Shown piece after piece: positions 2,499 to 23,471 of a DNA stretch of 48,270 bases (position 1 is the stretch's first letter; every line of letters begins with the position of its first letter). Under the pieces are notes generated by a model that did not search any database, was not told where the DNA came from, and was given only the letters and a program-made list of their open reading frames with translations. Location of the stretch: positions 1-48,270 of the IMG/VR virus record IMGVR_UViG_3300008459_009695. One strand, written 5' to 3'. The position numbers were made by a program, and so were the translations under genes. The stretch is from a virus.

Positions 2499-2506
2499 TA
2501 AAAGTT

Positions 2507-7059: not shown

Positions 7060-7080
7060 ACTAAATTTTATAAAATAAAA

Positions 7081-7101
7081 AAGGGTCCTAATTGGACCCT
7101 T
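7081..7101 (-). terminator. Intrinsic terminator between converging transcription units
   Basis: A perfect 8-bp stem AAGGGTCC/GGACCCTT with a 5-base loop lies between the stops of the converging fibre and resolvase genes. Read on the minus strand, the stem runs directly into a T-rich tract, giving a good Rho-independent terminator for the long tail operon. On the plus strand a T-rich tract also follows, but about ten bases later, so it may work in both directions with the minus strand stronger. Confidence 0.85.
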
Positions 7102-7119
7102 AACTTTCTATTATTTTTT

Positions 7120-7713
7120 TTATTTTGAATTAAAGTAACTTAAAACTACCGTATAAGCATCTGTCATATCAAAATTCTCTTTCTTTAATGTATTGTTTCT
7201 CGTGTACAACCATGTTATTTGTGGCTCACGTTTAGCAACTAATTCCCATATAACTTGTTTTTTATCAATATCTTTAGGATACCCTCCAAATAAAACAAAT
7301 TTACCTTTATCATTTTCTTTAACTAATTCAGGAAATGCATTTTTTCTTGAGTTATATGTTGAGATGAATTCAGGTACAATACCTAAAACATCATACACCT
7401 CTTTGGTTATTAATGTGTTATACCTCAATAAAGTACCTATAGTATACACATTATTAGAATTGAGTAATGGTTCTTCAATCACAACCTTAACAATACCTAA
7501 ATTCTTATATTGTTCTAATTTTAATTTAAATAAATCAGATTTTTTTAGGAGTTCTTCTATCTTATCTTCTGATTTAGGTTTAGGTTGTGGAGAAATGTGA
7601 GTTAATTCCAATAACTCTTTAGTTTGTAAATCAAAAAGTGCCCATCCTATAGTTTTAGTTGACACATCTAATCCCAAAATTTTGGGATTATTCTTAAGCT
7701 CTTTCTTTGACAT
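7120..7713 (-). CDS. RuvC-like Holliday junction resolvase
   Basis: The 197-residue protein has the RNase H-like fold signature of RuvC-type resolvases. Asp16 lies in GLDVSTKTIGWA, Glu80-Glu81 in VVIEEP at the end of a strand, and the C-terminal acidic pair Asp182 and Asp185 in FDMTDAY. These are the expected metal-binding residues. Such enzymes cut four-way junctions, and in phages they resolve branched DNA before packaging. Its ATG overlaps the stop of the 727-residue tail gene (TAATG), and it is the last gene before the terminator. This places it with late genes, as with T4 endonuclease VII, which is a different fold. Confidence 0.85.
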   Translation of the reverse strand: MSKKELKNNPKILGLDVSTKTIGWALFDLQTKELLELTHISPQPKPKSEDKIEELLKKSDLFKLKLEQYKNLGIVKVVIEEPLLNSNNVYTIGTLLRYNTLITKEVYDVLGIVPEFISTYNSRKNAFPELVKENDKGKFVLFGGYPKDIDKKQVIWELVAKREPQITWLYTRNNTLKKENFDMTDAYTVVLSYFNSK

Positions 7714-9896
7714 TAAAAATCGTATTTAATCATTATCTGCTGTATACCACTTCTTTGGGTTGGTCTTTGCATTTTTGATATAAAAATAAGGTCTTTATCC
7801 GAATCGTAAAGACCGATTTCATTAAAATATGGAGTTATTGAAGTATTCCATGATGGATTACTACTACTAACAAACATTCCTGAAGGTAAGTTAACTCTAT
7901 ATTTCATTTCATATATGGTCGCTTGGATGTCTGTTTCAATATTACCATAGAAATAATATTCATCTCCAAAATTTAAACCTCCAGTACTTCCTAAAGTTGG
8001 TATGTACAATACCGACCCCATATCATGAATTGAGGCGTTATCATATAATTCAGAAGTTATAGTAAATGTACTTTGGTATAGTCCCTGTGGGTCAATATAC
8101 CCTCCAACAGTATATCCGCTTAATTGGTTAGTGAAATCAATTTCTTTCCAAAGGTTTGGGTTTGGGTATTCCCCTGTAGTAACTTTCTGAGCAATGACGT
8201 AAAATTCTTCAGCGACAAATCCTGTAACTCCATCAATATTCATACAACCAAATTCATTATTAAATATTAATGAAACATCCATTGCGTAGTTAGTACACCC
8301 ACTAGCAGGTCCTTGTATTTTTTGATAGTATTGACAATGTAAAGAATTTGTAAATGACCCATTATTATAAAAACCATATGAAACCCATAATGTTTCACCA
8401 TCACCACTTAAAACACCTGTACTTGTAATATCACCATTACATATATTAGGAGCAACTAAATTAACTTTAGGTGCGGGTAACGTCCAGTTTCTATTTGATT
8501 TATAAGACAATGCTGCAATTATTTCAGCGTCATCAATAACAATTAATTGGTCATCAGGAAATACTTTACCAATTCTACTCGGAGTACCTCCTGTATTTAA
8601 ATAATTATCCCAAAGGGTATAATATCTAATACCAGGATTATTCATATCCGAGTTTTTACTCGAATTAAGTAATCCTTGTTCCATAAATCCACCTCCATTT
8701 ACAGGTGGGTCTACATAAAAAGTTTCACCTGAACAACAATTACTACCTTTATGCCACATCAGTGTCGGGATATGTAATTTAAAATTGCGAGCCTGTCCTG
8801 TTTCACCAGGATTATTTTCGTCGTATTCTTCAACAGCAAATTTTTCACCGTAAAAATTATTTATCGCTTGGTTTGTAAAATGTATAACCGCAATTGATTT
8901 TTGTTCTTCAGGGGTCACTATAACTGGTTCATCGTATGAATTAAAATAAAAAACATCAGTGGTCGCCGATTGACCTAAAGAACTCATGTATCCTAAATAT
9001 TCTTTTGTACCTATATAGTCTTTTGATGCATAATAATTGTAGTCCTGATACACTGCATTATTAAGTCCCGCAATACTACTACTCCATATTATATTCATAT
9101 TCCAAACTAATGATGAAATTTGGTCAGTATAACATAAAGATTCGTAATTTACCACATCATCATTCCAATGACCTGCAGGTGTAATAGTATCATAAAGTTG
9201 TGTCATCCCTGAAGGATAAACCATTAATCTTGAGTTGGCGGTAGTTGTTAGGGTTGTAAAATCTACACAAGGTCTGTCTAAACCTATTAAATTAGTACCT
9301 GAATCATAGTAGGTTACCCTATACGTGAGAGTAGGGTAACAAGATTGATAACATGAACAAAGGTCTGATTGATTATAAAAAACAGTAACAAAATCACCAA
9401 TATCAATTGTACTATTAGCCGTAGAGTCGCAGGCTAACGGATTTGAAGTTCCAGATATTAATACTCCACCATCAAGTAATGTAGTATCAGTTTCAAATTC
9501 ACTGTTTATAGTATAAGCAGAACATGGTTGTACATACCAACAACTTGAGTCACCTGAAAAAAACCCTCTAGGTTCTGCACTATTATATATTGATACATAT
9601 TCAGATTCCATATAGGGTATACCATAAGTATTACCTGAAGTGCCTTGCATATAATACGGATACTTAATATAATTTTTTGTAGACTGTGGATATCCAGTAT
9701 TATTTTGAGCGTTATATGGTGGCATCAAAACTTTAGAAGTTGTTGATACTGAGTTAGTAACTCCAGTGTATAAAACCTCACTATCTCCAATTTGAAAATA
9801 TTGTATGTTTAAATTTCCTTGTGAAATTTTTCTTCTACCAACGTCGGTAATTCTAGTTGAGATTAATCCTGATGTATTTTGTAAAATATAACCCAT
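7713..9896 (-). CDS. Tail/baseplate-associated structural protein (727 aa)
   Basis: This large protein has no membrane segment or signal peptide. It starts with a short region (ISTRITDVGRRKIS, then YFQIGDSE) of the kind seen in phage tail proteins that bind the baseplate. It is rich in Tyr, Asn, Ser and Gly and ends in a strand-rich region with EIGLYDSDKDLI, like fibre-attachment or collar proteins. Several Cys pairs (SCYQSCYP, SNCCSG) occur in the middle. Its gene lies between the mosaic fibre gene and the resolvase, in the late tail operon. The precise role is not recognised; a fibre-connector or minor tail protein is most likely. Confidence 0.6.
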   Translation of the reverse strand: MGYILQNTSGLISTRITDVGRRKISQGNLNIQYFQIGDSEVLYTGVTNSVSTTSKVLMPPYNAQNNTGYPQSTKNYIKYPYYMQGTSGNTYGIPYMESEYVSIYNSAEPRGFFSGDSSCWYVQPCSAYTINSEFETDTTLLDGGVLISGTSNPLACDSTANSTIDIGDFVTVFYNQSDLCSCYQSCYPTLTYRVTYYDSGTNLIGLDRPCVDFTTLTTTANSRLMVYPSGMTQLYDTITPAGHWNDDVVNYESLCYTDQISSLVWNMNIIWSSSIAGLNNAVYQDYNYYASKDYIGTKEYLGYMSSLGQSATTDVFYFNSYDEPVIVTPEEQKSIAVIHFTNQAINNFYGEKFAVEEYDENNPGETGQARNFKLHIPTLMWHKGSNCCSGETFYVDPPVNGGGFMEQGLLNSSKNSDMNNPGIRYYTLWDNYLNTGGTPSRIGKVFPDDQLIVIDDAEIIAALSYKSNRNWTLPAPKVNLVAPNICNGDITSTGVLSGDGETLWVSYGFYNNGSFTNSLHCQYYQKIQGPASGCTNYAMDVSLIFNNEFGCMNIDGVTGFVAEEFYVIAQKVTTGEYPNPNLWKEIDFTNQLSGYTVGGYIDPQGLYQSTFTITSELYDNASIHDMGSVLYIPTLGSTGGLNFGDEYYFYGNIETDIQATIYEMKYRVNLPSGMFVSSSNPSWNTSITPYFNEIGLYDSDKDLIFISKMQRPTQRSGIQQIMIKYDF

Positions 9897-9925: not shown

Positions 9926-11905
9926 TTATCCTCCAAAAAACTGTTGTCCTAAATTAGCGAAAATTTCAACAATATCATTACCTATCGATACAGTTGAACA
10001 TGGAGCATTATACAATTTGACATTTCTTAATTGGTATTTTAATAAATATGAATACTTTTTGTTACATGGAAATGTTCCATTTGGTTTATTCCCTATTAAT
10101 ATAGAATGATTAAATGCTAAATTATATGTATCACTACTTGTGATTTGTAACGCATTATACATACTAACATCCAAGACAACTGTTTTGGCAGATAAAGCTC
10201 CTTTACATCCTGCCAATGCAAAATCAGTAGTAACTTGTGGTTGTATTATAGGTGTTTGTAATATTGAATTTTTTTCAACCGTATTATTAGTTCCCCAACT
10301 ATAATAATCTGAAGAAACATATTGTGGAGATTGGGTTATTTGACTTGTAAAACTTAAATCAAATTCAACAATTACTCCACTAGGTAATGATGGAGTAATT
10401 GTAATTTCCGCCAATCGACCATTTGTAATAGTTGTAGTATATATAGAAGACGGATTAGAATTCCAATTTGTAGTAGTATAATTTCCAGTTGGGTTACCAA
10501 CAAAATTTACATTTATAACATAATTTTGATTTTGTGTTTGAGATACAGTTACACCAGCGTTTGATGTATTACCGTTATTGTCCATAACATATAAAGTGTA
10601 ATTACCTGATACTAAATTATTAAATAACGGTGAGTTTTGATATGTTATATTATCAATTGAATACGTATAAGGAGGAGCTCCCCCATTTGCTGTAGCCAAA
10701 ATACTTCCATTATTTGTACAAGCATTATTAACTGTATAAGTTAATGATAACGTTTGAGATGAACAAGTACCTTCAGTTACTACTACTAAACCACTTGTTG
10801 TATTTCCACCACCTAAGAATGCCCAACCATTGTTTGGTATTAGTGAAGTTGTTGTAGATTTTAATTGTGGAGTTTGACTACCACACATAACTAAACCAAC
10901 AAATTCCCAATCTGTTCCATTGTGTAGTATAAAATATTGACCATTTTCAGAAATCCAAGAATAATGAGAATTTTGAGTTCCATTATTAATAAATGTAATT
11001 AAATAAGATTGTTCACAATATGTGAAAGACATACATAAATTTGGGATTAAAGGTTCACTACCAACACTTTGTGATGGAGTCATAGTAGGTGTTGTTGTTG
11101 GGGTACTTGTTGGTGTCGGTGTCGGTACATAGAATCCACAAGTAGTTGTTGACGAGAAATCACCATAATAATCTGTAACAACCGCAGTGTAAAAACCATA
11201 ACTAACGTTATTTAACGTTTGAGATGTCTGTCCATTAGACCATTGAATAGAATATGGGGCGGTCCCGCCAGTAATTAATAGAGAAATAATTCCGTCACTA
11301 TATCCAACACCTGAAGGTTCTTGGACTACTTGACATTGTACCTCCATTGGGTATATCGTAATAACGTCACATTCGTTTTTACCAGTTAACCTTAGACTTA
11401 CGGTAACTTCAGGGTATGGTGTTCTTGAAACTGAGATTGATGGAGTTACAGATGGTGTGTTTGTAATAGTCGGAGTAACTGTTGGAGTGGTGGTTTTGGT
11501 TGGTGTGGGTGTAAAACCTATACTTTTTGTTGGAGTACTTGTCTTAGTAGGGGTTATGGTTTTAGTAGGAGTTGGAGTCGGTGTTTTAGTCTTAGTAGGA
11601 GTAGGTGTTGGTGTTTTAGTCTTAGTAGGAGTTGGAGTCGGTGTTGAAGCCGCGCAACAATAACCAGGTGCTGACCCACATACTGCAGGAGCATTTAAAA
11701 CTAAACTTGCAGTATTTGCCCCATAATCATAACCTGATGAAGATGGACCAATTAAATTTTCAATAATAAAACAAAAATTAACACCCTCAACCGATTCAAT
11801 GTACCACATTTCACCAGGTTGTCCACCGCTTGGCATGTTAATTATATATTGATTACCATCACAACAGTTGGATACTAAATAATTATATGGCGGTACAAAC
11901 ATCAT
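9926..11905 (-). CDS. Mosaic tail fibre with Cys-rich, SprB-like and Thr/Pro linker modules (659 aa)
   Basis: Order of parts: an N-terminal Cys-rich module (1-85, YLVSNCC, closing in GYCC) resembling the Cys modules of the 1442-residue fibre; a Thr/Pro/Lys linker (about 87-163); an SprB-like repeat (about 170-258, [23 protein letters not shown] then VVTDYYG); a short linker; a module with [10 protein letters not shown] that recurs in the 1442-residue fibre; a second SprB-like repeat (about 388-455, [11 protein letters not shown] and [12 protein letters not shown]); and a C-terminal domain of about 200 residues. It is probably a receptor-binding fibre. Two adjacent ATGs begin the gene, after a TATTTATA box. 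The shared modules with an oppositely oriented gene point to domain shuffling. Confidence 0.75.
11415..11650 (-). repeat. Thr/Pro/Lys linker repeat in the 659-aa fibre
   Basis: Direct repeats encode three copies of [10 protein letters not shown] followed by related Thr-rich sequence. It is the inverted counterpart of the linkers at 3052-3219 and 5122-5382 and codes for nearly the same peptide with different codons. Confidence 0.85.
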
Positions 11906-11952: not shown

Positions 11953-14328
11953 TTATGGTTTAACAGTTACAGTCCAATTATAAGGTGAGTTTTTCAAACC
12001 TAAATAATAAGGGTTTGTTAATCCTCCTGTTGGTGATTCTGGTTGTATACCTGAAGTACCTGACAATAATAAAGTTTTGTTTGTTAAGGTACGAGCCGTT
12101 GCCAAATTGTAGAAATCTTGTAATAGGTAATCCACCGCCGCGGTTTTTAATCCTGTATTTGTAAATTGACCACTTGTAAATCCAGTCAAAGCGGAAAAAG
12201 TATTAGTCCATCCTGTTAAACTTGTTGTTGAATTAAACGAAAATATTTTTAAGGTTGACGGGAAATCTCCTTGTATTAGGTCGGACGATGTTTTAAAATT
12301 ATTATCTCCCAGATATATGGTATTTAGTGACGTAACCGCACTTAAATTAGTCATAGCACTTAAACTACTATTACTTGACAAATTAATGTAGGTAGCACCT
12401 GTCATTAAACCCAAATTAATGTTTGTTAAATTATTAAGGGTCATATCAATTGTTCTAATTGATGATGGGAAATTTTTAGTCCAAGCCGTTAATCCAACTC
12501 GACTAATATCAAATTCATTCAAACTTGTCGCACCAGTTAATTCTTGAGTCCATTCGGGTATGTAAGTATTTACCCCAAATTGATTTCCTACAATTATATA
12601 CTGTAACGATGTAGGTATATTACTTGTATATCCTGTAAATTGATTATTATTTAAATAAAGGTTTTGAATTGAATTTGGGAATGTCGGAGGTAGTGATTGT
12701 AAATCGTTATTATTTAATTTTAGTGTCACCAAACTTGTACATGCTGAAATTGAATTGGTAAACGCACTAATGTTATTTTGTTGTAAATCAATATATAAAA
12801 CTGACGATGGGAAAGTTTTTGTCCATCCTGTAAGTGAACATTCTCTAGCTCTAAAATATTGTAAATTAGTCGCACCTGATATTTCAACATCCCAAGAATA
12901 TAAAGCATTATTATAACCACCAACAGTTGAACTAATATCAAAATCAGTTGTTGATGTTGGAAAATTTGATGTATATCCTGTTAATAAATTATTTTGTAAC
13001 CACAATGTTGATATTGAATTTGGTAGGACTTGCGGTATTGTTTGTAACCTATTTCTATCCAATCTTAGTGTTGACAACGAGGTACATGCCGAAATTGTAT
13101 CTGTAATACTAGTCAAACTATTATTATATAGATATAATAATGATAAATTTGTATTATTATTTAAATTCGGTTGGAAAGATTTAAAGGAGTTGACACCACC
13201 TAACAATCCACCAGTCTGATTGTCTAAATCAATTCTTGTAATACTTGTTGGGAAATTTTCAGTCCACCCTGTAATTCTATTACTATCTAAACTAACTCTA
13301 GTCGTTGTCGTACTTGAACTCAATGGTGTTAAAAAATTAAAATTACTTAACGTAGCATTTTCCGCCAAATAAATCCAAGCACCTGTTTGTGGTGAACCAA
13401 AGTTGAGTTGTGTTAAATATGTATTATTTCTAACAGATAAACTTGTTGGTCTTGATGAGACTGTATATCCTGAATAATTAATTGTTGCCGAAGTAAAATT
13501 ATTATACCTATATTGAATGTTACCTAAATTGGTACTATTTTTAATTTCAAAATTAAACGTACTTGCAGAGTTATAATTGTAAATAAAAGTATCAAATGTT
13601 GTAGGATAATAAAAACTAAAATCTTCCACTGTTGAACCTGTAATACTAATTAAATCCAAATTAGTGAAAGCGGTAAAAGTATAAGTATTTGCAGATATTC
13701 CTGAAATTTTTCCAAAATATAATTCATTGATACCCGCCGCCGAATTTGGGAAAGTCGGTGACCCATATCTTAAATCATATAATGTGGTAGTGTAATCACC
13801 GCTAGCATAACTTTTACTTAATGCAATATTAGTAGTTGCGGTGTAAGCCGGACTTACAATAGAATAATTTAAAGCGGGGTCACCATTACCAAAATCAACT
13901 GTAAATTTAGAATTTAATAACGACCTTAATATGATAGTTTGAGGATTTGAACCATCTATATTCTGAACCTCAAAATAAGGTGGTATTGGCATAGATTTAG
14001 AAGGAGTAATACTTGGAGTTATACTTGGGGTTGGTGTTGGGGAGGTAGGTGGGGCGGATGGTGTGGGAGTAGGGGTTGGGGTATTTGAGGGTGTTGGTGT
14101 GGGTGTTGTTTGAATGAATTGTAATTCTTCGCATCCCTCAGAACTTTCCACAGTTACTTGTACAAATGGTAAAGTTGACCAATCTGACGGTAAATCAACA
14201 TAAATTGTTGGAGGTACGTATGATGTCTCATATGCCGCCAAAAAACAATTATTACCGTTGTTGTCACATACAGTTATTTGATACGGCGGAGTACCTGTTA
14301 TATTTGTTATTGTTATATAGCAACTCAT
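11953..14328 (-). CDS. Leucine-rich-repeat tail fibre with ITG/VCD N-terminal module (791 aa)
   Basis: Residues 1-77 are the ITG/VCD module (ITGTPPYQITVCD) shared with 2507-2731 and 22416-23471. A Thr/Pro/Ser linker follows (about 78-117). From about residue 190 to 740 the protein is made of leucine-rich repeats of about 20-23 residues, for example LxxLxLxxNxLxxIP and LYLNNNQFTGYTSNIPTS, with repeated TGWTxxFPSSIxxIDL units. LRRs form curved binding solenoids, so this is likely a receptor-binding fibre. LRR solenoids are also common in Bacteroidota surface proteins (BspA-like), so transfer from the host is possible. The start is fixed by the conserved module. Confidence 0.8.
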   Translation of the reverse strand: MSCYITITNITGTPPYQITVCDNNGNNCFLAAYETSYVPPTIYVDLPSDWSTLPFVQVTVESSEGCEELQFIQTTPTPTPSNTPTPTPTPSAPPTSPTPTPSITPSITPSKSMPIPPYFEVQNIDGSNPQTIILRSLLNSKFTVDFGNGDPALNYSIVSPAYTATTNIALSKSYASGDYTTTLYDLRYGSPTFPNSAAGINELYFGKISGISANTYTFTAFTNLDLISITGSTVEDFSFYYPTTFDTFIYNYNSASTFNFEIKNSTNLGNIQYRYNNFTSATINYSGYTVSSRPTSLSVRNNTYLTQLNFGSPQTGAWIYLAENATLSNFNFLTPLSSSTTTTRVSLDSNRITGWTENFPTSITRIDLDNQTGGLLGGVNSFKSFQPNLNNNTNLSLLYLYNNSLTSITDTISACTSLSTLRLDRNRLQTIPQVLPNSISTLWLQNNLLTGYTSNFPTSTTDFDISSTVGGYNNALYSWDVEISGATNLQYFRARECSLTGWTKTFPSSVLYIDLQQNNISAFTNSISACTSLVTLKLNNNDLQSLPPTFPNSIQNLYLNNNQFTGYTSNIPTSLQYIIVGNQFGVNTYIPEWTQELTGATSLNEFDISRVGLTAWTKNFPSSIRTIDMTLNNLTNINLGLMTGATYINLSSNSSLSAMTNLSAVTSLNTIYLGDNNFKTSSDLIQGDFPSTLKIFSFNSTTSLTGWTNTFSALTGFTSGQFTNTGLKTAAVDYLLQDFYNLATARTLTNKTLLLSGTSGIQPESPTGGLTNPYYLGLKNSPYNWTVTVKP
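13985..14110 (-). repeat. Thr/Pro/Ser linker in the LRR fibre
   Basis: Low-complexity sequence encodes alternating Pro-Thr with Ser, for example [11 protein letters not shown] and then [11 protein letters not shown]. It joins the N-terminal module to the LRR part. Unlike the other linkers it has almost no Lys. Confidence 0.8.
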
Positions 14329-14350: not shown

Positions 14351-14803
14351 TCACTTTGTTAATTTATTAGAATTAATTCTTATAAACTTATACCAAATTC
14401 TTTCGTGTAAAAAATATACAATTGGTTTAATTAATAATTCACCAATTCCAATAAGTGATGACATTTGTACTGACGCCCCTAACAAGTAAGCAGTTGTAAC
14501 AGTAATTAAAGTACCCAACAATCTGTAAGATATTGTTTTTAAAATGTGACGAGTAAGTACTGATTCTTCTTTAACTGTTTGGATATAAGCAATATTATCC
14601 TTGATTGTACAGTGTCCTTTACAACTGATATGCCATTTATAATCATTAATTTCTTCAATCCAATCTTTAGTTGTCGATGTATATCCATCAACAATAATAT
14701 TTGAAACTAAAATTTCTTTCCCATTTTCAATTAATCTCCATCTATTAGTTTCATCGGTTGAATTTGTATTAAACCTTATTTGAAATGTTTTTATATTACT
14801 CAT
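14351..14803 (-). CDS. DUF2061 membrane protein with N-terminal soluble domain (150 aa)
   Basis: Residues 1-80 form a small strand-rich domain containing RWRLIENGKEILVS and a Cys pair (CKGHC, 61-65). Residues 84-140 match DUF2061: RHILKTISYRLLGT, two hydrophobic helices, then GELLIKPIVYFLHERIWYKF. I recall DUF2061 proteins as short membrane proteins sometimes linked to sulfate-activation genes. Here it follows an APS kinase and nucleotidyltransferase, with its start overlapping the nucleotidyltransferase stop by four bases (ATGA). The context suggests a membrane role in the same pathway, such as anchoring or transport, but no activity is known to me. The fusion of the N-terminal domain to DUF2061 is notable. 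Confidence 0.75.
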   Translation of the reverse strand: MSNIKTFQIRFNTNSTDETNRWRLIENGKEILVSNIIVDGYTSTTKDWIEEINDYKWHISCKGHCTIKDNIAYIQTVKEESVLTRHILKTISYRLLGTLITVTTAYLLGASVQMSSLIGIGELLIKPIVYFLHERIWYKFIRINSNKLTK

Positions 14804-15198
14804 AATAGTCCTTCGGTTTTCATTTGTTCTCTAATTTTAGTTGCCGAAATATCGTGAATCTCTTGAGGAGGTATTCTTTCAATAATATCATACCCTACAC
14901 CTCTACCAAATTCTATTGAGCATATGTCAGGAATTATTAATACTTTAACTCTATCATTCATATCTGAATAATGAGACTCGATATTTGTTTTAACTTCTAA
15001 AGCGGTAAATGGATTTTTTTCATCAGGTTGGATATCTCTGATACAGATTAACACATTTTTACCTTCGTCCAAAGCTTGTTTAAATAACTCTTGATGCCCT
15101 TTGTGAAGTGGTTGCCATCTTCCAACAAACATTGCATGCTGACCTTCCTTAGGTTTCAAAGATGATTCTACGTGTATTTTTTTATCCCAATTTTTCAT
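14800..15198 (-). CDS. HxGH-motif nucleotidyltransferase (NadM/cytidylyltransferase-like), possible ATP-sulfurylase substitute
   Basis: The 132-residue protein has GRWQPLHKGH (26-35), the ATP-binding HxGH motif of the nucleotidylyltransferase superfamily, and ISATKIR (117-123), the matching C-terminal motif. The central sequence (ICIRDIQPDEKNPFTALE) most resembles archaeal-type NMN adenylyltransferase. ATP sulfurylase belongs to the same superfamily. The gene overlaps APS kinase by four bases and no other NAD gene is nearby, so it may adenylylate sulfate to make APS. It could equally activate another small substrate. Substrate is inference from neighbours, not from residues. Confidence 0.75.
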   Translation of the reverse strand: MKNWDKKIHVESSLKPKEGQHAMFVGRWQPLHKGHQELFKQALDEGKNVLICIRDIQPDEKNPFTALEVKTNIESHYSDMNDRVKVLIIPDICSIEFGRGVGYDIIERIPPQEIHDISATKIREQMKTEGLL

Positions 15199-15623
15199 TT
15201 TCTATTAAATGGTATTAAGTTTAAACATTCAGACACTGTAATATTTGTAGTATCAATGTCAATATAATTCTCAGTTGGTTTTTCGTAATCTTTTGCAAAA
15301 TTTTGTTCCCTACCTCTTATTTCATCAGTATGTACGTATATTTCAACAACTTTATTTGTTTGTTTCAAAGAGTCTCTCATAATTTTATAAGGAGCAACTA
15401 CAGAAACAACCACAGTAAAACCTTTATGGTCTAAGAACCTACATAAATCTAAAACGGATTGTATGTTTTTTTCTCTACCCTCTTTTGAGTAGTCAAAGTT
15501 TTGGAATAGTTCTCTTAATCCGTCCCCATCAATATGGATACAATTATCTGAACAGTTTCTAATAAAAGCTTCCGCCAATGTTGTTTTTCCAGCACCTGGC
15601 TGTCCTGTGAACCAATAAATCAT
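15195..15623 (-). CDS. cysC: Adenylylsulfate (APS) kinase, CysC-like
   Basis: This 142-residue P-loop kinase has the Walker A motif GQPGAGKTT (7-15), then IDGDGLRELF (31-40) and DYSKEGREKNIQ, followed by VVVSVVAPYK (71-80). These are the APS-binding features of CysC, which phosphorylates adenylylsulfate to PAPS, the universal sulfate donor. It is shorter than bacterial CysC (about 200 residues) because the lid region after EIYVHTD is abbreviated. Overlaps of four bases with both neighbours (ATGA) tie it to the nucleotidyltransferase and sulfotransferase. Together they point to PAPS supply for sulfotransfer. Confidence 0.85.
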   Translation of the reverse strand: MIYWFTGQPGAGKTTLAEAFIRNCSDNCIHIDGDGLRELFQNFDYSKEGREKNIQSVLDLCRFLDHKGFTVVVSVVAPYKIMRDSLKQTNKVVEIYVHTDEIRGREQNFAKDYEKPTENYIDIDTTNITVSECLNLIPFNRK

Positions 15624-16444
15624 ATATTCTTTGGGTATTTAAAAATTTCATTATACCATCCATATTGATTGTAAATCCAATCACAAATATCAGAACCTAA
15701 TATCTTTTGAGCATCAGATGGTAACAACTCTAAAGTTTTTTTTATTTTATGGTCACCAAAAATTCCATAAACCTCATCATCTTCTTTTGTAATTTGTTCA
15801 ATATTTTCAAAGTCGTGTTGGAAATATGGTATTTCAAAATAATCATAAATTTTTCTCATAATCAAATCAGGATAAAGACACAGGTCTTCATATTTAATAA
15901 ACAGTATATTTTCGTTTATACCTTGTCTAAAAATTTCTTGTAGTCTTTCAATTGCCATTCCAACTGGTTGTGAGCTGGCCCATATGTCAATTCGTTTAGG
16001 TGTTGAGGTCCCTTTTAATTCAGCATGGTTTACAATTCCAAAATCTTTATGTTGATTTTTTCTGAAGTTTTTTTCCATAGATGTATAGATATCTCTGAGG
16101 TCTCTCACCATACAAACAATTTTTGGTTTGTCAACAATTTCTTTTAGAAACCCATAATGGATTCCCCACCCTCTACTTTTATCGACTACATATTTTTTAT
16201 CAGTAACACCTTCATAAAACCCTCTCATACCTTCTTTACAAAAAGATAAGAATCCATTTTTCATAAGTTCAGGGTCCTGAGCCTTAAACTCAGGTGAACT
16301 ACTATAGTTGGCTCTCGCAGCATAAACTAACTCCAAAACCCCACTTGTAGGTGTCGAATAGATGTCAGGATTTTGAGCCAAAATGTTTTGAAGTAAAGTA
16401 CTACCTGCTCGGGGTAGTGAGCTTTGAAAAAATAATTTTTCCAT
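15620..16444 (-). CDS. PAPS-dependent sulfotransferase
   Basis: The 274-residue protein begins with the 5'-phosphosulfate-binding loop SSLPRAGSTLLQ (8-19). It has the 3'-phosphate-binding segment MVRDLRDIYTS (112-122, Arg114 and Ser122). A WASSQPVGMAIERLQEI helix and a LFIKYEDLCLYP motif further match the sulfotransferase family. It moves the sulfo group from PAPS to a hydroxyl or amine on a sugar, lipid or protein; the acceptor cannot be read from sequence. The gene's stop overlaps the start of the APS kinase, so donor synthesis and transfer are genetically coupled. Placement among fibre genes suggests that fibres, or host surface glycans, could be the acceptor. Confidence 0.88.
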   Translation of the reverse strand: MEKLFFQSSLPRAGSTLLQNILAQNPDIYSTPTSGVLELVYAARANYSSSPEFKAQDPELMKNGFLSFCKEGMRGFYEGVTDKKYVVDKSRGWGIHYGFLKEIVDKPKIVCMVRDLRDIYTSMEKNFRKNQHKDFGIVNHAELKGTSTPKRIDIWASSQPVGMAIERLQEIFRQGINENILFIKYEDLCLYPDLIMRKIYDYFEIPYFQHDFENIEQITKEDDEVYGIFGDHKIKKTLELLPSDAQKILGSDICDWIYNQYGWYNEIFKYPKNI

Positions 16445-16446
16445 TT

Positions 16447-16833
16447 TTAATATATTTTTTTAACAGTTTTCCAATATTCTTGATTTCCGTAGGATGTACA
16501 TATTTCTTCTCCAATCTCAATATCCCTTAATGCTATAAAATAGTAGATTCCATTATCAGAATTACACGTCCATGTCGCATTATTATTATCACTGTGATTG
16601 TATATACAACCGTAACCTAAAGGTATTGCGTACTTTAATGGTTTTACACCACAGGGATATGAAAACCGATATTTTAATAAAATGTCGTCATTTAAACCTA
16701 AATCTATCTTGAAAAAAATTGAGTAGCAAGTTTCAATAATTTCATCTTTCAATATTTTTTCAGTAGCAAAAACTCCAAGTCCGTGAATTGGAGAAGATTT
16801 AACTTCAATTTTATTTGGTATTGGTATGTTCAT
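16447..16833 (-). CDS. SET-domain protein methyltransferase
   Basis: The 128-residue protein is an almost minimal SET domain. Motifs in order: HGLGVFA (17-23), the knot-forming YNHSDNNNATW (78-88), and IGEEICTSYG (107-116). These bind S-adenosylmethionine and form the lysine channel. SET enzymes methylate protein lysines. No pre- or post-SET cysteine clusters are present. I place the start at the ATG at 16831-16833, inside the end of the glycosyltransferase gene; a GTG two codons upstream is the alternative. Lysines in the fibre linkers (KTKTP) are an obvious but untested target. It is two bases from the sulfotransferase start. Confidence 0.82.
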   Translation of the reverse strand: MNIPIPNKIEVKSSPIHGLGVFATEKILKDEIIETCYSIFFKIDLGLNDDILLKYRFSYPCGVKPLKYAIPLGYGCIYNHSDNNNATWTCNSDNGIYYFIALRDIEIGEEICTSYGNQEYWKTVKKIY

Positions 16834-17701
16834 TATCACTTAGAGAATTTATAATCTCATTAATATCAAACATTTCAAATTCATTATTATATGGAAACTC
16901 TAATGGTTCTCCTTGTATGTTGAATTTATTAATGTATGACATTTTTAATTCTGGTTTCTTTGTAAACGGTTTTGAAACAATGTTCTTATTTGTCTCATAC
17001 CCAAAAACTTTAGGAGAATTAACAACCCATAGCACTGTTGATTCTAACTTTAGGGCTCCCGCAACATGTTGTCCAAAACTATCCATAAAAAATCTTTTAT
17101 TACTCATAGCAATTAAAGTTGCAACGGACCTGAAAGTGTCAGTAACTGGTACTGTATTTGGGAATGATGGTTGGTCTTCTCTCTTCAAATGAAAAATAGT
17201 GTAACCATATTTAAATTTTTCAATTACACTTTCAACAATGTGAAATGGAATATCTCTAGCCCAAGAATATTTTAAATTTTGTTCAACCCCTCCATTTGTT
17301 TGAATCACCATAATTGGTTTATCCGTTGTGTATTTTCTTGAGAAGTAATTAATTTCTCTTTCGGTCAAATATATGTTTGGTAATTCTCCATTATAATCTA
17401 ACCCAAAAAGTTTACACCATGTTTCAATTAAATTTTCCGTTTTATTAATATGATTAGTTTCAAGATAAGGGTCATGAGCAAAAAGTTTAAACTCTTTGTC
17501 TTCTATATAGTCCGAATAAAAGTAGGAATGTTCACCGAAGTTAAACGCCCTATCAACATTAGGGTTGTTTAGAAAAACATCAGGATATCCTGAAACAACA
17601 ATTAATTTAGAATTTGGGTATTTTTTTTTAATTACCTCAGTAACAGCGGTTGCGACTATACATTTACCTATTCCACCATTAATTTGAAAAATAATGTTCA
17701 T
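16811..17701 (-). CDS. GT9-like (heptosyltransferase-type) glycosyltransferase
   Basis: The 296-residue protein has the two-domain GT-B look of family GT9. An N-terminal GGIGK (9-13) follows a strand, with YPNSKLIVVSG next. A central MVIQTNGGVEQNLKYSW begins the C-terminal nucleotide-sugar-binding half, and DSFGQHVAGAL is the typical donor-binding helix region. GT9 enzymes usually add heptose to lipopolysaccharide core; related phage and bacterial members glycosylate proteins or other surface glycans. Its stop overlaps the SET gene by 23 bases. A strong inverted repeat lies five bases before its ATG. Acceptor and sugar are unknown. Confidence 0.78.
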   Translation of the reverse strand: MNIIFQINGGIGKCIVATAVTEVIKKKYPNSKLIVVSGYPDVFLNNPNVDRAFNFGEHSYFYSDYIEDKEFKLFAHDPYLETNHINKTENLIETWCKLFGLDYNGELPNIYLTEREINYFSRKYTTDKPIMVIQTNGGVEQNLKYSWARDIPFHIVESVIEKFKYGYTIFHLKREDQPSFPNTVPVTDTFRSVATLIAMSNKRFFMDSFGQHVAGALKLESTVLWVVNSPKVFGYETNKNIVSKPFTKKPELKMSYINKFNIQGEPLEFPYNNEFEMFDINEIINSLSDNEHTNTK

Positions 17702-17757: not shown

Positions 17758-17955
17758 TTAAGGTAATTTACTTATTATCTCATCTGAATTGTTACATAAA
17801 AATCCATTAATAGTTACCTCAGAACCAACAAAAGCATATATCCCCCCTCCCATGAAAATATGTACACACATGTTGTCTATTTTTTCATAAGACTCGTATT
17901 GGTAATCTGAATTTCGATAATTTATAAGATTGTTGTTAATTGAAATGTAATCCAT
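17758..17955 (-). CDS. Small protein coupled to the beta-roll fibre (65 aa)
   Basis: The 65-residue product has a central Gly-rich hydrophobic part (FMGGGIYAFVG) and no recognised domain. Its ATG overlaps the stop of the 1482-residue fibre (TAATG), so it is probably translated with it. Small genes in this position are often fibre-assembly chaperones, but nothing in this sequence shows that. Function unknown. Confidence 0.6.
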   Translation of the reverse strand: MDYISINNNLINYRNSDYQYESYEKIDNMCVHIFMGGGIYAFVGSEVTINGFLCNNSDEIISKLP

Positions 17956-20900
17956 TAGGCTTTATTTATTTGTACATGTATAAATGAACTTAAAGTTGAG
18001 TCCCCGACGTTCCCATTTTGTACCGCAACTATAACGTATTGGTTCACAGTCCAATTTATGTTATTTGACGCTACCGCACCAGTTCCAATAACATCATCAA
18101 GTGTTGATGTACCTCCAGCTTGGAAAGTTTCAGTATTAGTTGATGATTTTACAACAAGTGTTCTTGGTATTTGCAGATATACAGTGGTCGCGGCGGCTGT
18201 TGTACTTGTTCCGACTAACGAACCCCCAATCGCCGCGGAAGTGTTAACATAATATCTTAATATTACTGTTCCAGCGGTACCTGTTTTTCTAATTCTTGAC
18301 CTAATATTTAAAATGTCTCCAACACCTACAGTATTTGCAGGAATTAAAACACTAGAGGTCAAAGTACTGGCTATTGTACCTGTAACCGCAGTACCGTCAG
18401 TAACTGTTTGTAAAGTTTTAGTTATACCTGGAACAGTTATACTTGTTGCGGTAAATCCGCCTGTTATCATATTATTAGTGTAAAATGTACAGTTGGCCGT
18501 AGCATTTAATCCACAACCAGCGGCGAACGAAAAATTACCCGTAACAGTATTTCCACTACCACCAACAACACCACTTACTTGACCTGTAACTAAATTACGT
18601 TGTCCACCACCTATAAATGAATACCCCGCAGTTGTCGCACTATTAGAAAATCCTCCACCTATAAAATTACCAAAATTGTCATTTACATTACAAAAACCAC
18701 CAACAATAACCCCATAATCACCACTACTACAAATTCTATTATTACAACCACCACCAATAAAAGAATGTCCTATTAAAGCGTTACAAATTAAATTAGAACA
18801 CCCACCAACAATTGCAGAATTAATTCCTAAAGTCACAGAATTAAACACACCACCACCAATAAATGATTGACAAGTACACATAGAATTACTACACCCATTA
18901 AAAATACCACTATGACTTCCATTAGTACTTATAAGATTACTCCTACCTCCTCCGATTGTTGCCGATGAACCGCAATTAGTATTTAAACACCCGTTTATTA
19001 CGGTTGCGAATCCAACACCGGCAACAAGATTCGCCTGTCCATTAAATATTTGACCACTTGCCGTACATCCACTATTTGAAATACCATTTAAAATTGTTTG
19101 ATTACCAAAAGATTGATGTATAAAATTACTTTGACCATTTAAAATGGTTGAGATTGTCCCACAATTACAGTTACTTAATCCGTAAACTAATGAGTAGGAG
19201 TTTCCCGCAAGATTACCGGACCCGTTCAGTACTGTAGAATAAGTACCTGAAGCAGTATTGTTACTACCATTTAAAATAGTAGGATAACTTGTGGTAGTTG
19301 CAGAGTTAGAGCCGCCTCCACCAATAAAAGAATGTGATGAACAAGCTTTATTTAAAACCCCTCCCCCAATGAAAGAACACGCCCCAAAACTACAGTTTGA
19401 TACCCCACCAACAATAACCCCACCTGAACCACAATTCATGTTTTGACTTCCTCCAACGACAACTGAGTTTAAACACAGTGATAACCCACTATAACCTCCG
19501 GCAATTACTGAAAAATTACCTAATGCGCAATTAAGAAATCCTCCTGCAATTGTTGTTGTACAACCCGAAGATAAATTACAATAACCACCCCCAATTGTCG
19601 CATAAAATGTTGCCCCTGTATTGAATGCACCTCCAGCGACCACAGAATTTGCACCTGACGCCAAATTACCGTAACCACCAATAATTGACGAATAGCAAGA
19701 CGATACAGTATTTTGTCTACCCCCTCCAATAGTAGAAAACCCGTTACTTACAGTATTACAGAACCCACCAGCAATTGTTGCGTATGTGTCTGAACTTGTA
19801 TTAGTCTTACCTCCAACAACAACACTATTTACTCCTGACGCTAAGTTAGACTCACCAGCACCAACAAAAGAGTAGGTACTTGTACCGCTATTACATATAC
19901 CACCACCAACAAAAGAGTAATTAGCATTTGCCACATTTTTAAATCCGGCAACTATAATACCACTGGCACAAGTAGTATTACATTCCCCGCCACCTATAAA
20001 ATCAATACATCCCGCCAAAATACAATTAGACAAACCACCACCAATAAATGTTGCACAAGTACCCTTACCACCAAATGAACAAATTTTATTTAAACACCCA
20101 CCAACTATTGAACCACATGATGGCCAATCTATAGTATTTTGAATACCCCCAACCACACTTGAGTATGGTCCGCAGACTGTATTATTCGCACCTCCACCAA
20201 TAAATGAGGAGAAATGTCCGGTTTGACCTGAGATTATATTATTTGAACCTCCAACAACTGAGGAATAATTTGAACATGTGACCCTATTACTTGAGCCTCC
20301 AACCACGCTAGAGTATGATGCGGAATTATCAATTTTATTATTTATTCCTCCTCCTACAAATGTTGAAATCGTACAAGAATTACAATTAAGTGACCCCCCC
20401 ACAATTGAAGAACAAACTCCACAATTTATATTGTTTATACCTCCACCTATAAAATTAAAACACCCAAAAAGACTTATTGATGTTAAATTTCTAATTGGTT
20501 CGGAACTATTAAAGTTAGTTCCTGTAGAAACATCTAAATCCAAACAAGTGTAACCTCCACTATATGATGATGCGGTAATATTACCTTTTATTATTTTGTT
20601 ATCATATATATTAAAATATTGGACAGTATTACCATTAGGAAAACTAGCCGTTACGTCTCCAGAAATTAATACTCTGTTATAAGCAGATTGTGTTGTATAT
20701 ATATTTGATTGGGTTATAGTCCCTCCATTTATATTAGCCGCTCCCCCATGTATTCCACTACCTAAAGAAATATTATTGTTTCCAGCCCCACCTGTAGTCG
20801 TAGTTTCGTTACCACAATTTAAATTATAATAACCCCCACCAATAAATGAAGTACACGTATATGTTGAGATTGTATTTTTATATCCCCCAACAATTGATGT

Positions 20901-22403
20901 CCCACTACTAGAAAAATCAATAGAGTTTAAACATCCTCCAAGTATTAAAGAGTTTGGTGAATTTTTTCCGGCAAATTGATTACCCGAACCACCTAAAATT
21001 GATGAATAATCACTACTAGGACTAATAGAATTTTTAGCTCCACCTCCAATTAATGACCCTATAGCGCCTTGAATACAATTACCTCCTCCCCCAACTATTG
21101 AAGCGTTTTTAGAGGAATATACACTATTTGTATAACCCCCACTAATTGTTGAATAGTACGAAGAAGATGTTACTGAATTACCTCTACCACCACCAACTGT
21201 TGCATAATCTGAACAAGCCGAATTTTGGTATCCTCCACTAACAGTTGTTGAACACCCTTGTGTTTGATTATTGTAACCTCCAGATATTGTCGAATAATAG
21301 GAATTTGATTGTGATAAATTATTCTGTCCTCCGGCAATTACCGAATAAACTGAAGTATTAAATATCTTATTAGAGTCCCCTCCAAGAATTGACGAGAAGG
21401 TAGTTTCCACCAAATTATTACATCCACCACCTATTGTAGAGTAACTACTTCCTGAAATGATATTATAATAACCTCCACTTATAGTTGACCCATTACCAAC
21501 AGCAGGTCCAACAGAATTAAAAGACCCTCCACCTATCGTAGAACCATATGAACTACTAGTATTTTTGTAACCCCCACTTACAGTTGACCTAATACAATTT
21601 GCAGCGTTATTATGACCACCCCCAACAAAAGAATAATCACCACCAGCAATATTATTATAACCCCCGCTAACTATGGATGTGTTTCCACTTGAGGTGTTAT
21701 TTCTTCCACCTCCTACAAAACTATAATTAGTAGAAGCGGTATTACCCGAACCAGCAAGAGAACCCGCAAAATCACCCGCAGCCGTATTACTTACCCCACA
21801 TCTTATTGTGGAATTAATACCTGTACCTGTTATATATAATGTAGTCGCTGATGATGTAGTTCCACCACTACCTGAACTATATTTTTTCCAAACCGCCGTC
21901 ACATGTGTTTCACCTCCAATACCTTCGATGGTAGATGCCGTCCAAGCATTTATAAAATTTTGACCCTCAACTGTTGTACTATCAACTGTGGTTCCAAAAT
22001 CATAAAAAGTTATAGCAGTAGTCGCAGTAACCGCAGTCCATAATGATTCATAATTATTAATTCTAAATTGGTATATTTGGTCGTCCTCATAAACATAGGC
22101 CAACATACCTAATCTTCTTCTACCTGAAGATATATTATCAGAGTTAAGAGTTAATACATCGGGCGAGAATACCGCGCCTGTACCTTTTGTAAATTGTATA
22201 GGTATAGTATTACCACTATATTCTATAGGTCCAAATGTTGCGGGAGGAATCGTATATACTAAATCAGTAAGATTAAATACTTCCATATAACCTCCAACAC
22301 CAAGAACGGAAAAATTTGTCCCAAATGTTTCGGACCTTAGTACTGATTGGACTCCGTTTAGTTGTTCAGAGCTTATTGGATTTTTATACGGAAATGTAGA
22401 CAT
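17955..22403 (-). CDS. Giant YadA-like beta-roll tail fibre (1482 aa)
   Basis: The first 190 residues are a baseplate-binding-like region. From about residue 205 to 1290 the protein consists of roughly 60 short repeats of 14-18 residues of the form S-(F/T)-(I/V)-G-G-G-x-x-N, such as SFVGGGRNN and STISGGYNN. This is the left-handed beta-roll of YadA-type trimeric adhesin heads. A non-repeat insert of about 90 residues splits the array (about 570-660). The last 180 residues form a distinct domain. Trimeric fibre with a repeat shaft or head is likely. Cys is frequent in the repeats (NCxxCSS), which is unusual for this fold. No membrane-anchor is seen, so it is a phage fibre rather than an autotransporter. 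Confidence 0.82.
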   Translation of the reverse strand: MSTFPYKNPISSEQLNGVQSVLRSETFGTNFSVLGVGGYMEVFNLTDLVYTIPPATFGPIEYSGNTIPIQFTKGTGAVFSPDVLTLNSDNISSGRRRLGMLAYVYEDDQIYQFRINNYESLWTAVTATTAITFYDFGTTVDSTTVEGQNFINAWTASTIEGIGGETHVTAVWKKYSSGSGGTTSSATTLYITGTGINSTIRCGVSNTAAGDFAGSLAGSGNTASTNYSFVGGGRNNTSSGNTSIVSGGYNNIAGGDYSFVGGGHNNAANCIRSTVSGGYKNTSSSYGSTIGGGSFNSVGPAVGNGSTISGGYYNIISGSSYSTIGGGCNNLVETTFSSILGGDSNKIFNTSVYSVIAGGQNNLSQSNSYYSTISGGYNNQTQGCSTTVSGGYQNSACSDYATVGGGRGNSVTSSSYYSTISGGYTNSVYSSKNASIVGGGGNCIQGAIGSLIGGGAKNSISPSSDYSSILGGSGNQFAGKNSPNSLILGGCLNSIDFSSSGTSIVGGYKNTISTYTCTSFIGGGYYNLNCGNETTTTGGAGNNNISLGSGIHGGAANINGGTITQSNIYTTQSAYNRVLISGDVTASFPNGNTVQYFNIYDNKIIKGNITASSYSGGYTCLDLDVSTGTNFNSSEPIRNLTSISLFGCFNFIGGGINNINCGVCSSIVGGSLNCNSCTISTFVGGGINNKIDNSASYSSVVGGSSNRVTCSNYSSVVGGSNNIISGQTGHFSSFIGGGANNTVCGPYSSVVGGIQNTIDWPSCGSIVGGCLNKICSFGGKGTCATFIGGGLSNCILAGCIDFIGGGECNTTCASGIIVAGFKNVANANYSFVGGGICNSGTSTYSFVGAGESNLASGVNSVVVGGKTNTSSDTYATIAGGFCNTVSNGFSTIGGGRQNTVSSCYSSIIGGYGNLASGANSVVAGGAFNTGATFYATIGGGYCNLSSGCTTTIAGGFLNCALGNFSVIAGGYSGLSLCLNSVVVGGSQNMNCGSGGVIVGGVSNCSFGACSFIGGGVLNKACSSHSFIGGGGSNSATTTSYPTILNGSNNTASGTYSTVLNGSGNLAGNSYSLVYGLSNCNCGTISTILNGQSNFIHQSFGNQTILNGISNSGCTASGQIFNGQANLVAGVGFATVINGCLNTNCGSSATIGGGRSNLISTNGSHSGIFNGCSNSMCTCQSFIGGGVFNSVTLGINSAIVGGCSNLICNALIGHSFIGGGCNNRICSSGDYGVIVGGFCNVNDNFGNFIGGGFSNSATTAGYSFIGGGQRNLVTGQVSGVVGGSGNTVTGNFSFAAGCGLNATANCTFYTNNMITGGFTATSITVPGITKTLQTVTDGTAVTGTIASTLTSSVLIPANTVGVGDILNIRSRIRKTGTAGTVILRYYVNTSAAIGGSLVGTSTTAAATTVYLQIPRTLVVKSSTNTETFQAGGTSTLDDVIGTGAVASNNINWTVNQYVIVAVQNGNVGDSTLSSFIHVQINKA

Positions 22404-22415
22404 ATACTATAATTA

Positions 22416-23471
22416 TTAACTTACTGTATTTCCTTTGAAATATATACTCGAAGTATTCAATAAATTAAAGTTAGTTGATGGGTAAGTTGTGTAAACCCTA
22501 TACGTTGTTTGAGGTATTGTAGACCCAGTATATGTAAAATAATAAGAATATATTGTTGGTTCAGTGTTAACAGTAGTTGGAGGCATAGAAGGACTTGAGG
22601 TACTATAGTCAATCTTTTTCTGATACAATCCATTTGTCATTCCCGTAGGAATCATCCAAGTAAACCAAGCTTTACCTGATACAGTATTAGCGGAAACTTG
22701 CGTTGTTTTAAAATTATAAGCAACAATTGCATTACCGAAAGAATCGTTTCCACCTGTAGTTTGAGGTACATCTTGATTTATAATTGACGGGAATAGTCCT
22801 GAAGTCCACCCTGAAAAATCAACATACACATTTAATTGGGTGTTAAAAATACTTTGATTTGTAGTTGGCGCACTGCTGTTAGTAAACCCATAAAACGTTT
22901 GTCCATTATCATACATCCATTGTCCAATACTTGTACTACCTGTTTGAGGTTCAATGAATAAAAACGCCTTCGTAGGTGGTAATGGCGATGAAGTCGGAGT
23001 TATAGTTGGAGTTTTTGTAATTGTTGGTGTGGCAGTTTTTGTAATTGTTGGTGTGATAGTTTTTGTAGGAGTATTTGTTGGCGTAGGCGTTGGGCTTTGT
23101 GATGATGGAGTTATTGTAGGTGTAATTGTATTTGTCGGGGTAGGTGTTGGACTTTGTGATGATGGAGTTATTGTAGGTGTAATTGTATTTGTCGGGGTAG
23201 GTGTTGGACTTTGTGATGATGACGTTACTGTGATTGAAGGTGTGGGTGTTAACATTGTTAAGGTGTTTTGACTAATACAACCATTAACATCATATACTTT
23301 AACTAAAATAATTGGAGCCAAACTGTATGGTTCAGGAACCGCAAGTACTAAATTTGGAGGTATGTACGAATCATAATAACCAATTACTTGACAGTTAGCA
23401 CCGAAATAATCACAAACCTCAATTGTATAAGGAGGTTGACCAGTAATAATATTTAAATTTATTAAACACAT
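22416..23471 (-). CDS. Tail fibre with ITG/VCD module and Thr/Pro linker (351 aa)
   Basis: Residues 1-77 are the ITG/VCD module ([13 protein letters not shown]) shared with 2507-2731 and 11953-14328. Residues 80-165 are a Thr/Pro/Ser linker with near-identical 19-residue units ([19 protein letters not shown]). Residues 166-351 are a strand-rich C-terminal domain with many Thr, Tyr and aromatic residues and no recognised family. It is probably a short fibre with a receptor-binding tip. It lies twelve bases from the beta-roll fibre start and three from the SprB-like protein stop, so it belongs to the same operon. Confidence 0.75.
23101..23214 (-). repeat. Perfect 57-bp tandem duplication in a Thr/Pro linker
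   Basis: The 57 bases at 23101-23157 are repeated without change at 23158-23214, and a diverged third copy begins at 23215. Each copy encodes 19 residues of Ser/Gln/Pro/Thr linker. Perfect identity implies recent duplication and likely length variation of the fibre. Confidence 0.95.

Follow-up and report, generated by a model that had tools for sequence, protein, structure and literature searches.

Results

Gene content of the locus

The window, that is, the whole stretch of 48,270 nucleotides of aquatic phage DNA analysed here, carries six ORFs at 14351-17701, all on the minus strand, which confirms the positions given in the first-pass annotation. Large fibre-type genes lie on either side (11953-14328, LRR and Thr/Pro-rich; 17955-22403, a repeat protein), also as described before.

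9926..11905, minus strand: SprB-repeat, Thr/Pro-rich fibre-type protein, 659 aa (PF13573 SprB, 3e-13)
11953..14328, minus strand: LRR, Thr/Pro-rich fibre-type protein, 791 aa, second candidate substrate (LRR matches; TPTPTPS linkers)
14351..14803, minus strand: DUF2061 membrane protein, 150 aa, a soluble N-terminal part of ~85 residues plus DUF2061 (PF09834, 2e-15, residues 87-137)
14800..15198, minus strand: NT, 132 aa, adenylyltransferase of the HxGH type (CTP_transf_like, 2.3e-7), proposed to make APS from sulfate and ATP as a non-orthologous ATP sulfurylase
15195..15623, minus strand: APSK, short APS kinase (APS to PAPS), 142 aa (PF01583 APS_kinase, 2.6e-17)
15620..16444, minus strand: ST, predicted PAPS-dependent sulfotransferase, 274 aa (PF13469 Sulfotransfer_3, 1.7e-18; PF00685, 8e-12)
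16447..16839, minus strand: SET-domain protein, 130 aa (PF00856, 1.2e-12), a probable lysine methyltransferase in an accessory role
16811..17701, minus strand: GT, glycosyltransferase of GT-B/GT9 (heptosyltransferase-like) fold, 296 aa (AlphaFold and Foldseek; putative sugar transfer)
17955..22403, minus strand: repetitive fibre-type protein (SFVGGG..N / GG..N repeats), 1482 aa, candidate GT-ST substrate (linkage to GT)

The genes are tightly packed. Overlaps of 4 bases join ST to APSK (15620-15623), APSK to NT (15195-15198) and NT to the DUF2061 gene (14800-14803), and SET and ST are separated by a gap of 2 bases. The three short overlaps reported previously thus stand; the fourth, reported as 23 bases, lies between GT and SET; it has that length if SET starts at an ATG, and is 29 bases long with the GTG start two codons earlier, at 16839.

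Protein families and folds

The enzyme classes proposed initially (GT9-like, SET, sulfotransferase, APS kinase, HxGH nucleotidyltransferase and DUF2061) were borne out by Pfam matches and, for GT, by an AlphaFold model. GT itself had no match in Pfam, and its profile had none among PDB sequences. According to the model (pLDDT 92.4), GT has a GT9 fold: the best Foldseek match was 3tov (GT9, 2e-12), followed by heptosyltransferase II (1psw), WaaC and TibC, with TMq of 0.5-0.68 for GT9 matches. At the level of sequence, the N-terminal loop expected to carry the GT9 catalytic Asp reads GGxGK, not GD.

The SET-domain protein scores 48.5 bits against a PF00856 cut-off of 22.4, and its NHS and GEE..xxY motifs can be read in the sequence. 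ST is above the cut-offs of both Sulfotransfer_3 (68.2 bits vs 27) and Sulfotransfer_1 (45.5 vs 22), and its alignment has a conserved PRxGSTLLQN 5'-phosphosulfate loop and an RDxR...SMEKN 3'-phosphate motif, as predicted of a PAPS-dependent sulfotransferase. APSK scores 63.7 bits against a PF01583 cut-off of 21.1, its nearest solved relatives are APS kinases, and its P-loop, DGDxxR, Y..GRxxN and PY motifs show little or no variation among 49 sequences. The NCBIfam apsK model gives 71 bits, under its cut-off of 138.7, with a match that spans residues 2-100 only; the phage protein is predicted to be a divergent short form that falls short of the full-length lid region.

NT is closest in both sequence and fold to NMN adenylyltransferase, not to ATP sulfurylase. 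Its N-terminal ~80 residues have an NMNAT/PPAT-type fold, the nearest folds are ATP-using adenylyltransferases, and its best NCBIfam and PDB matches are archaeal NMNAT and NadM. The motifs GR.Q..H.GH, GR..GY and S.T..R are invariant, and so are H32, G34, H35, S118, T120 and R123 in 60 sequences. NT carries the HxxH nucleotide-binding and ISxT..R motifs of the nucleotidyltransferase superfamily, which are weak evidence for a Sat-type identity because they are common to HxGH enzymes in general. It stays below the gathering cut-off of PF01747, the Sat-type ATP sulfurylase (18.5 bits vs 24.3, over 51 residues only), and no homology to CysD or CysN was found among its Pfam or NCBIfam matches.

Two recurrent modules in related viral loci

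No match to the whole cassette was found among phage records at the level of DNA similarity. Dozens of other viral contigs nevertheless have these genes side by side, which puts the arrangement far beyond chance. Two units are repeated across the 160 related loci, GT-ST and APSK-NT-DUF2061. The neighbourhood check suggested in the first-pass annotation thus came out positive, and the lack of conserved co-occurrence in related genomes that it had named as counting against its reading does not apply. The idea of one six-part system was not supported. SET is found in only 12 of the 160 loci, where it lies between GT and ST without exception; it was therefore rejected as a core part, and lysine methylation seems to be an addition made in particular lineages.

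To judge from their distribution, the two units move separately and are two co-located modules in the window. ST is present in every related locus that carries the window-type GT, and ST and APSK occur together in 65 of the 101 ST-bearing related loci, as they do in the window. In comparison with loci L082, L084 and L085, the position between ST and the fibre gene either holds APSK-NT-DUF2061 as a whole or lacks it altogether; on the L084 and L085 contigs the module is located elsewhere. A constant association of the PAPS module with a sulfotransferase was not upheld: a Sulfotransfer_3 gene was found in only 6 of 23 long viral records with the module and in none of the other 17, which suggests that the PAPS of some modules may go to enzymes of another kind, or to sulfotransferases that escaped detection.

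NT in place of ATP sulfurylase in cellular genomes

Textbook sulfate activation has two accepted types of ATP sulfurylase, CysDN and Sat. Both CysD and Sat are absent from 43 of 50 cellular genomes with NT, many of them incomplete; one or the other is also present in the remaining 7. In one Flavobacteriales family, 40 genomes with APSK divide into 32 with CysD and no NT and 8 with NT and no CysD, with no mixtures and none with Sat (Fisher 1.3e-8), a within-family contrast that may reflect few independent events. In the Marinisomatota (Marinimicrobia), a known sulfurylase is found in 75 of 81 genomes that have APSK and lack NT, vs 1 of 9 that have both (p=3e-7). The replacement can be seen at the level of single loci: L201 and L225 have genes in common on either flank, and L225 has cysC-cysD-cysN in place of cysC-NT. 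Cellular NT loci contain full-length APS kinase, a CysQ-like phosphatase and sulfotransferases; the order in L201 is cysC, NT, a deoC-like gene, an inositol phosphatase/CysQ-like gene, a flippase and three sulfotransferases. Across bacteria, archaea and phages, NT adjoins APSK or forms one protein with it, coming first in some cases and second in others; PHROG 10255 is an APSK-NT fusion.

Because NT is complementary to CysD and Sat in its distribution and takes their place in cellular genomes, the most likely reading is that it is an ATP sulfurylase not orthologous to either, and that the phage genes form a complete sulfate-to-PAPS pathway. The earlier claim of a self-contained PAPS supply with a sulfotransferase is thereby supported, on firmer ground than its authors knew. 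The DUF2061 protein is proposed to be an accessory of sulfate activation: DUF2061 is fused to APSK in L202 and L207, and a DUF2061-like ORF adjoins cysC-cysD-cysN in L226.

Fibre genes linked to GT

Of 67 GT-bearing loci, 41 have a homologue of the repetitive fibre protein no more than 3 kb from GT, vs 0 of 38 loci with APSK and without GT/ST, a contrast partly confounded by phage lineage. Homologues of the 791-aa LRR protein directly follow ST in L082-L085, where homologues of the 659-aa SprB protein are also found. Some cassettes, such as L003, adjoin other glycosyltransferases instead of the repetitive fibre. Because of the linkage to GT, virion fibres are favoured over the host surface as the target of sulfation; fibre decoration, as suggested initially, gains from this result, with host-surface modification beside it as a second conjecture.

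Two isolated phages with NT relatives, Clavibacter phage 33 and Stenotrophomonas DLP_6, have an APSK/NT-type gene with no annotated sulfotransferase nearby. These relatives gave no help in assigning the acceptor.

Discussion

From the gene content, folds and families, conservation, module mobility and replacement of CysD and Sat by NT established by sequence comparison, we infer the chemical activities, the sugar, the acceptor and the benefit. During infection, the APSK-NT-DUF2061 module would convert sulfate in the cell to PAPS: NT, as an adenylyltransferase of small size and NMNAT-like type, would join AMP to sulfate to yield APS, as ATP sulfurylase does, APSK would phosphorylate APS to PAPS, and the DUF2061 protein would be a membrane accessory. 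The GT-ST module would then place a sugar on an acceptor and sulfate it with this PAPS. The acceptor would most likely be the neighbouring repetitive or Thr/Pro-rich fibre proteins, with sulfated, negatively charged glycans on the virion as the outcome, and SET may act as an accessory methyltransferase. We regard this account, taken as a whole, as reasonably probable.

The most serious competitor holds that GT-ST sulfates LPS or capsule during infection and blocks superinfection, the proximity to fibre genes marking nothing but a host-interaction region. Host-recognition clusters of the T4-like pelagimyophages likewise have glycosyltransferase genes among tail-fibre genes, read by the authors as LPS modification, although sulfotransferase or PAPS genes such as those found here are not mentioned in that paper (PMC7029224). 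Two of the enzymes that GT resembles in its GT9 fold, WaaC and heptosyltransferase II, have LPS as their substrate, the cassette in L003 adjoins a further glycosyltransferase, and cellular NT operons with a flippase and sulfotransferases point to polysaccharide sulfation. However, the cassette lacks a flippase, a polymerase and a sugar-nucleotide pathway, and the fibre family is linked to GT-bearing loci rather than to loci with the PAPS genes only. We consider host-surface remodelling a possible but less likely reading. It is unlikely that APS and PAPS feed host sulfate assimilation instead of sulfation; the long PAPS-module records in which no Sulfotransfer_3 was detected would fit such a role, as would some cellular NT genes that, read by eye, adjoin methionine/SAM genes (L187, L194), but the co-occurrence of ST and APSK argues against it.

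Two further alternatives concern NT itself. As an NMN adenylyltransferase or NAD-salvage enzyme, it would sit in the operon by chance and APS would come from the host. Its best matches are indeed of this kind, but the similarity to the NMNAT model TIGR01527 is confined to the N-terminal 70-80 residues or so (36 bits vs a cut-off of 181), and both the fusion to APSK and the complementarity with CysD and Sat would be left unexplained. On the cut-offs and the genomic replacement we rejected this reading as quite improbable. The phosphoramidate (MeOPN) pathway of the Campylobacter capsule pairs an APSK-like kinase with a cytidylyltransferase, and the APS_kinase and CTP_transf_like pair in the window could by analogy make a nucleotide diphosphoramidate donor. 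Against this stand the PAPS-type sulfotransferase directly upstream, the ATP-using enzymes nearest to NT in fold and the company of NT in cellular loci; we set this pathway aside as very improbable.

Compared with CysDN/CysC and Sat/PAPS synthetase, the putative NT-APSK pair would carry out the same reactions with an APS kinase partner, including fusions in either order. NT differs from CysDN and Sat in its lack of detectable CysD/CysN homology, its sub-threshold PF01747 score and its size of about 110-160 aa. The BAHT glycosyltransferases (TibC/AAH) are defined by a four-Cys iron-binding site. These autotransporter heptosyltransferases, of which TibC O-heptosylates serines of a surface protein (PMC4358343), resemble the phage system in their GT9-type fold and in a glycosyltransferase gene near a repetitive surface-protein gene. 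In contrast, the phage GT has only two Cys in 296 aa and therefore no four-Cys iron site, a sulfotransferase is added, and the acceptor is a candidate. Another parallel is offered by the fibril glycan clusters of giant viruses: Moumouvirus australiensis (ma457-ma468) and Cotonvirus encode a predicted PAPS synthetase, a sulfotransferase and glycosyltransferases proposed to decorate virion fibrils, with sulfation a proposal in both systems (PMC10117803). In the giant viruses a single bifunctional protein combines sulfate adenylyltransferase with APS kinase, and sugar-nucleotide pathways are present, whereas the tailed phage has a separate APSK, an NMNAT-like NT and a two-gene GT-ST unit.

Our broadest proposal, which we hold tentatively, is that NT is a third kind of ATP sulfurylase, a minimal NMNAT-fold enzyme that replaces CysDN/Sat in lineages of Bacteroidota, Marinimicrobia and archaea, and that a mobile, phage-borne three-gene PAPS module powers sulfation of the phage's own fibres. 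We found no description of NT as a sulfurylase or of phage fibre sulfation in the open-access literature, which is weak as evidence of absence. NT seems to be a small sulfate-activating enzyme of a previously unrecognised kind and, in some bacteria, to stand in for the usual one. The compact gene set of the phage appears to convert plain sulfate to the sulfate donor of the cell and then to sulfate a sugar, probably one carried by the phage's tail fibres. If true, a third type of ATP sulfurylase would explain how the pathway can start in the many marine bacteria and archaea whose genomes make them seem unable to activate sulfate, and annotations of NT genes as NMN adenylyltransferase or hypothetical would be corrected. 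With a self-sufficient sulfation module, phages would not depend on the host for a sulfated, negatively charged surface, and phage-host recognition would gain a new layer.

Cassette genes and their phage

The six genes lie exactly where the first-pass annotation had placed them:

16811-17701, minus strand, glycosyltransferase (GT)
16447-16839, minus strand, SET protein
15620-16444, minus strand, sulfotransferase (ST)
15195-15623, minus strand, APS kinase (APSK)
14800-15198, minus strand, HxGH nucleotidyltransferase (NT)
14351-14803, minus strand, DUF2061 protein

The classes proposed there for SET, ST, APSK, NT (CTP_transf_like) and DUF2061 also held, with Pfam matches exceeding curated cut-offs, and both PAPS-binding motifs are present in the aligned ST. 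GT matched no sequence family in the Pfam search; its GT9-like assignment stands at the level of the predicted structure (pLDDT 92), which resembles GT9 heptosyltransferases, including TibC, an enzyme that O-heptosylates serines of surface autotransporters (PMC4358343).

The IMG/VR record, a 48,270-base viral fragment, belongs to a T4-like phage: it carries nrdA/nrdB and the baseplate wedge genes gp6 and gp25. A Bacteroidota host is probable, as judged from SprB repeats in two fibre-type proteins (9926-11905 and 23475-25682) and from the nearest isolates, which include Flavobacterium phages for gp6 (24% identity, within six weak matches) and are Cellulophaga and Tenacibaculum phages for NrdA (41%). 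Mucin-like TPTPTPS linkers occur in four fibre-type proteins (2731-7059, 9926-11905, 11953-14328, 22416-23471).

NT as a candidate replacement for known ATP sulfurylases

NT, the proposed ATP sulfurylase, carries HxGH and ISxT..R motifs with invariant H32, G34, H35, S118, T120 and R123, and a family-specific GR..GY motif at residues 98-103. By sequence and predicted fold, its N-terminal ~80 residues are like NMN adenylyltransferase and phosphopantetheine adenylyltransferase; it scores far under all curated NMNAT cut-offs, and its match to PF01747 (Sat) is also under the cut-off. On 62 cellular contigs, the family mostly adjoins APSK or is fused with it in either order, and the APSK half of a fusion is in some cases a canonical enzyme of full length (about 200 bits with TIGR00455).

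Among 50 NT-containing cellular genomes, many of the searched genomes being partial, CysD was found in three, Sat in four others and neither in 43. Complementarity between NT and known sulfurylases was seen in two phyla. APSK is present in 40 of the 52 genomes of the family of L201, a cellular locus; all 32 without NT have CysD, whereas all eight with NT lack both CysD and Sat (Fisher p 1.3e-8). In 149 Marinisomatota genomes (70% completeness floor), Sat or CysD accompanies APSK in 75/81 genomes without NT versus 1/9 with it (p 3e-7); both p values are inflated by relatedness. In L201, L227, L228 and L229, cysC-NT is bounded by conserved flanks: on the left a ~2000-aa protein, a GcvH-like protein (by eye) and a ~220-aa protein, and on the right deoC-like, CysQ-like inositol-phosphatase, flippase and sulfotransferase genes. 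The same flanks enclose cysC-cysD-cysN in L225, from a CysD-containing genome of the L201 family; within a sulfation operon, the ATP sulfurylase has been exchanged in place. Cellular and phage members are intermixed in a tree of 94 NT sequences (a short alignment with many unresolved forks), consistent with repeated exchange.

DUF2061 likewise has a genomic link to sulfate activation: it is fused to APS kinase next to NT in two Chitinophagaceae MAGs (L202:7216-8007 and L207:7297-8007) and adjoins cysC-cysD-cysN in L226. The fusions hint that it tethers PAPS synthesis to the membrane or assists it there. The window protein (14351-14803) has an additional soluble N-terminal domain of ~85 residues, common to many phage homologues, which matched no family.

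Two mobile modules

Conservation of the neighbourhood in related phages was confirmed, with cassette genes recurring across 160 viral loci collected in two viral-contig scans, one by APSK and one by ST; counts are partly non-independent, as some locus pairs share one contig. ST is present in 81/81 GT-containing loci, SET in 12 loci, and the APSK-NT-DUF2061 trio recurs in many, with or without GT-ST. DNA alignment reveals how the window came together: three relatives (L082, L084, L085) match it on either side, at 17.77-15.61 kb and 14.34-11.0 kb, but have no APSK-NT-DUF2061 unit (1.27 kb) separating ST from the LRR fibre gene. For L084 and L085, a PAPS module lies at another place on the contig (L007 and L002); L007 shares 79% DNA identity with window positions 15624-14359. 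The complete six-gene unit recurs in L003 (75% identity) among other neighbours. By these scans and alignments, GT-(SET)-ST and APSK-NT-DUF2061 form two mobile modules, often in the same phages. In L003, set in a different phage backbone, a GlcNAc glycosyltransferase follows the cassette (7290-8540; PF11397, 1e-68).

Of 23 long viral records carrying a PAPS module, 17 show no Sulfotransfer_3 along their whole length, so not all such modules serve a window-type ST. APSK is extended by ~115 HAD-type phosphatase-like residues (FCDIDGT motif, by eye) in L013 (5989-6756), L015 and L016, possibly for PAP recycling. Modules without sulfotransferase in L022, L024, L033 and L058 (~2500-9500) lie among genes that were read by eye as NodU-like carbamoyltransferase, tryptophan-halogenase-like and 2OG-oxygenase genes, and possibly belong to other decoration systems. 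Isolates also carry APSK+NT-type (phrog_10255-like) genes, namely Clavibacter phage 33 (L230:3590-4327) and Stenotrophomonas DLP_6 (L231:3593-4324), surrounded by genes for replication and lysis; no sulfotransferase is annotated in their vicinity.

Candidate targets of sulfation

In loci that extend 2.5 kb or more upstream, the 1482-aa repeat fibre has a homologue no further than 3 kb from GT in 41/67 GT-containing loci, versus 0/38 APSK loci without GT/ST and 0/13 loci that have ST but no GT. For Thr/Pro-rich proteins, counted up to a distance of 6 kb, the figures are 15/67 versus 0/38. These counts link GT to fibres and not to PAPS supply, as an association confounded by phage lineage rather than proof. 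In L006, L008, L042 and L050, another virion-type protein (PHROG 'virion structural' or 'tail spike') lies upstream of ST. Comparable pelagimyophage glycosyltransferases were read by their authors as modifiers of host LPS (PMC7029224), and remodelling of the host surface is an alternative to which we give about a third of the weight; the fibre association, lineage-confounded as it is, speaks against it. Decoration of the fibres ranks first, at slightly better than even.

In the open-access literature we found no account that assigns NT an ATP sulfurylase role, and one may exist elsewhere. That a virus may bring its own PAPS synthesis, along with a sulfotransferase and glycosyltransferases, to act on virion fibrils is so far a proposal, made for Moumouvirus australiensis and Cotonvirus (PMC10117803). 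The window resembles them in virus-borne PAPS synthesis, sulfotransferase and glycosyltransferase, predicted from genes in both cases, but differs in coming from a tailed phage, in having its module compact and mobile and, most of all, in NT.
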